A DNA stretch of 64,000 nt, from contig JASUSA010000006.1 of assembly GCA_030446305.1 (NCBI GenBank), positions 1 to 64,000 of the forward strand. Reading direction: 5' to 3'. The DNA is from Clostridiales bacterium. GTDB taxonomy: Bacteria > Bacillota > Clostridia > Peptostreptococcales > Acidaminobacteraceae. Below the pieces are notes generated by a model. That model ran no database searches. It saw only the letters and a program-made list of their open reading frames with translations, and was not told where the DNA came from. Positions within the stretch are counted from its first letter, which is position 1; each line of letters begins with the position of its first letter. Shown in pieces: positions 13,061-53,805 of this stretch. A program made the position numbers and the translations under genes.

Positions 13061-13089
13061 TTGACTTCACTAAGTGAAGTGGATATACT
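13061..13089 (+). promoter_or_regulatory. sigma-A promoter with embedded palindromic operator
   Basis: TTGACT-17 nt-TATACT; spacer region holds the perfect palindrome ACTTCACT-A-AGTGAAGT (13064-13080). Confidence 0.8.
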
Positions 13090-13094
13090 ATGTA

Positions 13095-13203
13095 AGTATT
13101 GTTAATTGAATCGGTATAGTGACACCCTTAAGGGTGGCTACTTGAGCCTTAGGAACAAGAGTGTTTAGTCATCCTTAAGGGGTGATTTCTCACTCTTTTT
13201 TTG
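13095..13203 (+). ncRNA. structured pyrG leader or stand-alone small RNA ending in an intrinsic terminator
   Basis: Hairpin CACCCTTAAGGGTG (13123-13136); terminator AAGAGTG...CACTCTTTTTTT (13157-13203) enclosing CATCCTTAAGGGGTG. Confidence 0.65.
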
Positions 13204-13257
13204 TACAATTAACAGCACGGTTATTTACTGTTATTCATTTTGATTTATATAGGATAG

Positions 13258-14892
<1,635 letters not shown>

Positions 14893-53651: not shown

Positions 53652-53688
53652 AACATTGCAATTGAAGCTTTTATAATTTTATAGCAAT

Positions 53689-53789
53689 CCTTATCAAGAG
53701 TGATGGAGGGAATAGGCCCTATGAAGTCCGGCAACCGGTTGTAACACGGTGCTAAGTCCTACAGATGCGAAGGCATCTGGAAGATGAGG
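53689..53789 (+). ncRNA. SAM-I (S-box) riboswitch aptamer
   Basis: CTTATCAAGAGTGATGGAGGGAATAGGCCCTATGAAGTCCGGCAACCGG...GGTGCTAAGTCCTACAG...GATGAGG. Confidence 0.97.
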
Positions 53790-53805
53790 TGATATCGAAC
53801 ATATT

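Follow-up and report, generated by a model that had tools for sequence, protein, structure and literature searches.

The pyrG leader and its layout

In the 64,000-nt stretch of DNA analysed here (the window), pyrG is preceded by a promoter and a short structured RNA that ends in an intrinsic terminator, which raises the question of whether this RNA controls pyrG in cis or is a separate small transcript, and, in the former case, what signal it responds to. Re-reading of the sequence confirmed the elements named in a preliminary description of the locus, which lie on the forward strand: a sigma-70-type promoter with a −35 box TTGACT (13061–13066), a 17-nt spacer and a −10 box TATACT (13084–13089); a perfect 17-bp palindrome between the two boxes, ACTTCACTAAGTGAAGT (13064–13080); a hairpin, CACCCTTAAGGGTG (13123–13136); a third CCTTAGG (13147–13153); and a terminator with the inner arm CATCCTTAAGGGGTG (13170–13184), followed by a U7 tract at 13196–13202. 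Transcription is predicted to start at 13095/13096, in a conserved AGT (13095–13097), giving a U7-terminated leader of ~107 nt. The terminator as a whole (hairpin and U7, 13157–13202) is kept in relatives and precedes the coding region, with 82 nt between the end of U7 and the pyrG start codon at 13285. The gene itself (13285–14892, forward strand) encodes a CTP synthase of 535 aa, recognised by Pfam (CTP_synth_N, E = 3.6e-134; GATase, E = 2.4e-41), and a ribosome-binding site, AAAGGAG, was located by eye at 13272–13278.

Four segments can be distinguished within the leader, all read on the forward strand. Segment A (CACCC, 13123–13127; GCACCC in most members) is the 5′ arm of the first hairpin, H1. 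Segment B (GGGTGGCTACTTG, 13132–13144) supplies both the 3′ arm of H1 and the 5′ arm of an antiterminator, while segment C (AAGAGTGTTTAGTCATCC, 13157–13174) supplies the 3′ arm of the antiterminator (13166–13174) and the 5′ arm of the terminator. The terminator's 3′ arm is segment D (GGGGTGATTTCTCACTC, 13179–13195), the outer part of which is C-rich and forms the candidate decision stretch discussed below. The antiterminator had been put forward only as a possibility, and its pairing turned out to be stronger than described: GGGTGGCTA (13132–13140) is fully paired with TAGTCATCC (13166–13174), and this core is extended by TTAA/TTAA and CTTG/CAAG.

Distribution of the leader among relatives

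Inspection of the sequence ahead of pyrG in relatives revealed this arrangement in many of them. A covariance model built from seven such leaders was searched against 395 genomes of one order (E ≤ 0.1) and matched 62 of them; after removal of three noise genomes, 59 leaders, one per genome and spread over five families of the order, were kept and realigned with a model from a clean subset, the initial MAFFT alignments having misplaced H1. Fifty-seven of the 59 lie directly before pyrG, one (L153) stands at a contig end, and one (L130) precedes an MBOAT gene. Of the order's sampled genomes, the leader is present in 58 of the 208 that have pyrG and in only 1 of the 187 that lack the gene. By family, the pyrG-bearing genomes with a leader number 26/34 (f1), 8/13 (f2), 8/17 (f3), 3/4 (f5) and 13/14 (f11), and none of the genomes of family f10, where pyrG is more diverged, has one. 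Sequence comparison thus indicates that the leader tracks one pyrG lineage. In the class and phylum samples, nothing convincing was found outside the order, the matches being same-order members and two weak ones (E ~0.008). Four weak matches (L164, L169, L172 and L173) were dropped for their low scores and the lack of pyrG behind them. One carrier is Alkaliphilus transvaalensis.

The commonest form of the leader reads GCACCC..GGGTGCCCT(A/G)CC..GGTAGGTCA(T/C)CC..GGGTGACCTCTCACTTTTTTT. A promoter of the pattern TTGA[C/A]N-17/18-TA[T/A/C]A[AC]T was sensibly placed by the scan upstream of 57 of the 59 members, and in these the bases of the AGT after the −10 box are conserved in 47/57 (A), 48/57 (G) and 54/57 (T). 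At the predicted start, the longer motif AGT(T)ATT (13095–13100 in the window, and in relatives) keeps a constant spacing from the −10 box across families.

Several individual loci depart from the common arrangement. In genome G079 (98% complete), a typical pyrG leader (L130:1501–1582, forward strand) lies directly before a gene for an MBOAT O-acyltransferase and pyrG was not detected; this leader may be an orphaned or re-used attenuator. Upstream of pyrG in genome G028 (L174), H1 is present and the pyrG frame seems to start right behind it, with no C and D arms, a state that may reflect a deletion or an assembly fault. Genome G007 has a divergent leader of the same layout (L019:1390–1472, forward strand) which, at E = 0.38, falls below the model threshold, so that the true spread exceeds our count. 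With regard to pyrG itself, the copies in f10 and part of f3, where no leader was found, are ~60–63% identical to that of the window; in the f3 genera with copies 71–76% identical to it, the leader is mostly present.

Three competing pairings and their covariation

According to the folding predictions, the leader forms three mutually competing pairings: H1 (A:B), the antiterminator (B:C) and the terminator (C:D). The window leader folds at −34.0 kcal/mol, compared with a mean of −24.0 for shuffled sequences (z = −3.3; 0/200 shuffles as good). Over the 59 leaders, the predicted H1 and antiterminator states are separated by a median of only −0.1 kcal/mol before segment D has been made, and in the complete RNA the state combining H1 and terminator is ahead by a median of 4.4 kcal/mol. 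The prediction for the window's own leader puts the antiterminator ahead by 7.7 kcal/mol at the pre-D stage, with a near tie (0.2) in the complete RNA. The predicted energies describe a bistable stage that gives way to a favoured terminator, as a kinetically decided attenuator would require. The B:C helix is poor in two leaders (L025 and L148).

The H1 and terminator helices, examined in 43 aligned leaders, consist of 95.5% standard pairs, with six pairs changed on both sides and a covariation score above that of all 500 shuffles. The antiterminator was tested separately in 39 unique leaders, in a fixed register of 12 columns. In these, 79.9% of B:C positions are paired, versus 38–57% in slid versions, and the covariation score reaches 0.110, compared with 0.059 for the shuffles (0/500 as high) and at most 0.057 for the slid versions; two further measures, the number of pairs changed on both sides and the variety of pair types, showed no excess over shuffles. 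Compensation can be followed at positions 8–9, where the window's lineage has U-A and A-U instead of C-G and U-A; in this lineage, G-U also takes the place of the C-U mismatch frequent in B:C. Pairing is likewise retained in L149 (CCUGCCCA versus UGGGUGG) and in L153, which has a different B segment (GGAUGUUGC). The complementarity of B and C is not implied by the A:B and C:D pairings, and it therefore constitutes independent evidence for the antiterminator. Both the pairing and its covariation, measured against shuffles and slides, indicate that evolution has maintained a mutually exclusive antiterminator, and we consider it highly probable that the leader is a conserved, cis-acting transcription attenuator of pyrG with this architecture.

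Two additional pairings were considered and set aside. That of GTTAATTG (13101–13108) with CAATTAAC (13206–13213), beyond the terminator, was treated as chance because its 3′ side is altered in a sister genome (L010, CAGTCAAC). A nested outer pairing of A with D, predicted in several leaders, is not kept in family f3 when inspected by eye, and was for that reason treated as a by-product of the likeness of A to C.

A possible mechanism of CTP sensing

In the mechanism that we propose, the strong promoter would drive synthesis of the leader RNA, in which B can pair with A (H1) or with C (antiterminator), and C with B or with D (terminator, followed by U7). With B held in H1, C:D would form and transcription would end before pyrG; with C captured by B, the polymerase would continue into the gene. 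H1 would be the first to form, and B:C would become favourable once C has emerged from the polymerase and D has not, a moment at which the polymerase would be adding the C-rich stretch ahead of the U-tract. Ample CTP would let it cross this stretch fast and the terminator would win; scarce CTP would make it linger, so that B takes C and pyrG is expressed.

The base composition of the leaders bears on this point. Nascent RNA was folded stepwise for the 39 unique leaders, assuming a polymerase footprint of 12 nt, and an antiterminator-favoured stage before the U-tract was found in 28 of them, with no such stage in the other 11/39. The bases added during this stage are 58% C, 28% U, 14% A and 0% G, versus 24% C and 28% G at the other steps, a bias whose statistics are inflated by the shared ancestry of the leaders; the composition of the stage is similar for footprints of 9–14 nt. 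Of the nine bases ahead of the U-tract, 52% are C and 2% are G. As a control, 59 other terminators were taken from the loci analysed, and in these the corresponding shares are 24% and 30%; the control set is slightly contaminated by at least three reverse-strand readings of pyrG leaders or of the divergent L019 leader. In some leaders the stretch is predicted to be unpaired and is still C-rich, and part of the C bias may serve pairing with segment C. It is this C-rich, G-free composition at the antiterminator stage that leads us to propose that a polymerase slowed by low CTP would linger where the antiterminator can form.

We put the whole account, a cis-acting pyrG attenuator in which polymerase speed senses CTP, at roughly 50%. 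The sensing step, a slowing of the polymerase at low CTP, is a proposed one, and the odds on it are even at best. That CTP would be sensed by RNA polymerase, through its speed and RNA folding alone, with the C-rich, G-free stretch falling where the antiterminator is favoured and the terminator is incomplete, and with no need for a ligand pocket, a protein, a leader peptide or start-site slippage, is a tentative proposal to which we give somewhat less than an even chance. The conserved AGT at the start is not accounted for by this mechanism and is counted against it.

Alternative explanations

A small-molecule riboswitch, whose ligand (CTP, UTP, glutamine or some other compound) would control termination by stabilising either H1 or the antiterminator, would suit the position, the gene and the switch-like fold, as well as the strong sequence conservation of B and C. 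Against it, Rfam scans at gathering and permissive thresholds found nothing relevant to the leader at the window locus or at 12 homologous loci, in agreement with the initial failure to match it to a known riboswitch; elsewhere in the window (53688–53790, forward strand), there is a complete SAM riboswitch (RF00162, 80.7 bits). Moreover, the H1 loop (2–10 nt), the B–C spacer (~0–25 nt) and the C–D loop (3–8 nt) vary in length and also in sequence, the three helices account for the conserved residues, and in the window's lineage the C-U mismatch frequent in B:C has given way to G-U. With such variable loops and spacer, and with conservation explained by the helices, the alignment offers no hint of an aptamer, and we regard a riboswitch as unlikely. 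The original reading, 'riboswitch/attenuator of CTP synthase', is thus borne out for the attenuator (59 genomes, 57 with the leader before pyrG, three covarying helices), whereas no conserved unpaired residues able to form a ligand pocket were found in the leader alignment. Control by a pyrimidine-responsive RNA-binding protein that would keep H1 or the antiterminator in place appears marginally less likely still: the conserved stem sequences of two hairpins could be protein sites, and PyrR-type control occurs in related genomes, but the PyrR family (RF00515) has no match at the window locus even at the permissive threshold, the loops are not conserved, stem conservation is already demanded by the double pairing, and there is no known candidate protein. 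A constitutive partial terminator that senses nothing and reduces expression of pyrG to a constant degree is improbable, for although all members have a strong terminator and the sensor is only inferred, such a device would not need a covarying antiterminator and an H1 of near-equal energy.

The remaining alternatives concern the start of the transcript, its independence from pyrG and its translation. CTP-sensitive reiterative transcription of the Bacillus pyrG type would give meaning to an AGT start region held at a fixed distance from the −10 box. The leaders, however, begin with AGT and, except for five with short scattered runs, contain no stretch on which the polymerase could slip, and no GGGC was found at their start, ~7 nt past the −10 box; as a positive control, a promoter-N6/7-GGGC start was recovered in 44 of 80 named pyrG loci, nearly all from Bacilli. 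We consider this mechanism very improbable, and agree with the preliminary description that the leader is not of the Bacillus GGGC type. A repressor-controlled small RNA, with the palindrome as operator and the 107-nt transcript acting in trans, is just as improbable. A perfect palindrome placed exactly between promoter boxes is rare by chance (8/20,000 shuffled promoter spacers); its arms are nevertheless kept only in the window and three near genomes (L010, L012 and L013), and are lost in L011, L014, L150 and L157, close relatives that share the leader. No second promoter-like palindrome site and no regulon were found in the genome, the one-mismatch site lying inside an ORF. Of the two features whose conservation in relatives had been suggested as a check, the stems are conserved, with covariation that beats shuffles, and the palindrome is confined to these four near genomes, which leaves both the operator and the small-RNA readings unsupported; the fixed position of the leader before pyrG, in 57/59 genomes, argues for a cis leader. 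The palindrome may be a lineage-specific operator or a coincidence and, judging from the aligned relatives, is not part of the conserved device. Leader-peptide attenuation, in which a ribosome chooses between H1 and the antiterminator, is the least probable of all: amino-acid leader attenuators share the A-B-C-D layout, yet a start codon with a Shine–Dalgarno-like site is present in only 1/59 leaders, and H1 starts as little as 6–7 nt past the predicted start.

Relation to known systems and significance

In E. coli, pyrBI is controlled by attenuation that depends on UTP and a translated leader peptide, a case of 'repression without repressors'. The attenuator proposed here would share with such systems the principle that polymerase speed at a limiting nucleotide decides termination, and differs in that no leader peptide was found in the pyrG leaders. 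Like the PyrR-controlled pyr operon leaders (RF00515), it is a three-state attenuator of a pyrimidine gene in Firmicutes; unlike them, it has no PyrR-family match at this locus, PyrR-like leaders being found elsewhere in related genomes. In Bacillus subtilis, the pyrG attenuator depends on reiterative transcription at GGGC that responds to CTP (Meng, Turnbough and Switzer 2004, as cited in PMC4448216). The two attenuators act on the same gene, combine an intrinsic terminator with a competing structure in the leader, and probably respond to the same signal, CTP. The leader described here differs in its AGT start and its built-in antiterminator of B and C, with no GGGC and no G-run pairing with the terminator.

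A 'pyrG motif' is named in the text of Narunsky et al. 2024 (PMC11109978), where its cis-regulatory call is described as perhaps right and its mechanism as hard to predict; among the organisms surveyed was Clostridioides difficile, which belongs to the Peptostreptococcaceae. That motif (Supplementary Figure S5 of the survey) takes its name from this gene and may be identical with our leader, and we therefore make no claim to have discovered it. The present analysis documents the covarying architecture (H1, antiterminator and terminator), the lack of GGGC and the C-rich decision stretch. Our search of the literature found no other described control of pyrG besides the Bacillus GGGC mechanism.

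With 59 aligned members and a covariance model, the leader can be searched for and tested, and the C-rich decision stretch offers a specific and inexpensive way to ask if a single nucleotide can be sensed by polymerase speed alone, by way of competing RNA folds. As pyrG encodes the last step of CTP synthesis, a different attenuator of this gene in another order would mean that the same control problem has been solved more than once; if the proposed mechanism is true, a polymerase-speed sensor would play in this order the part that the GGGC device plays in Bacillus.
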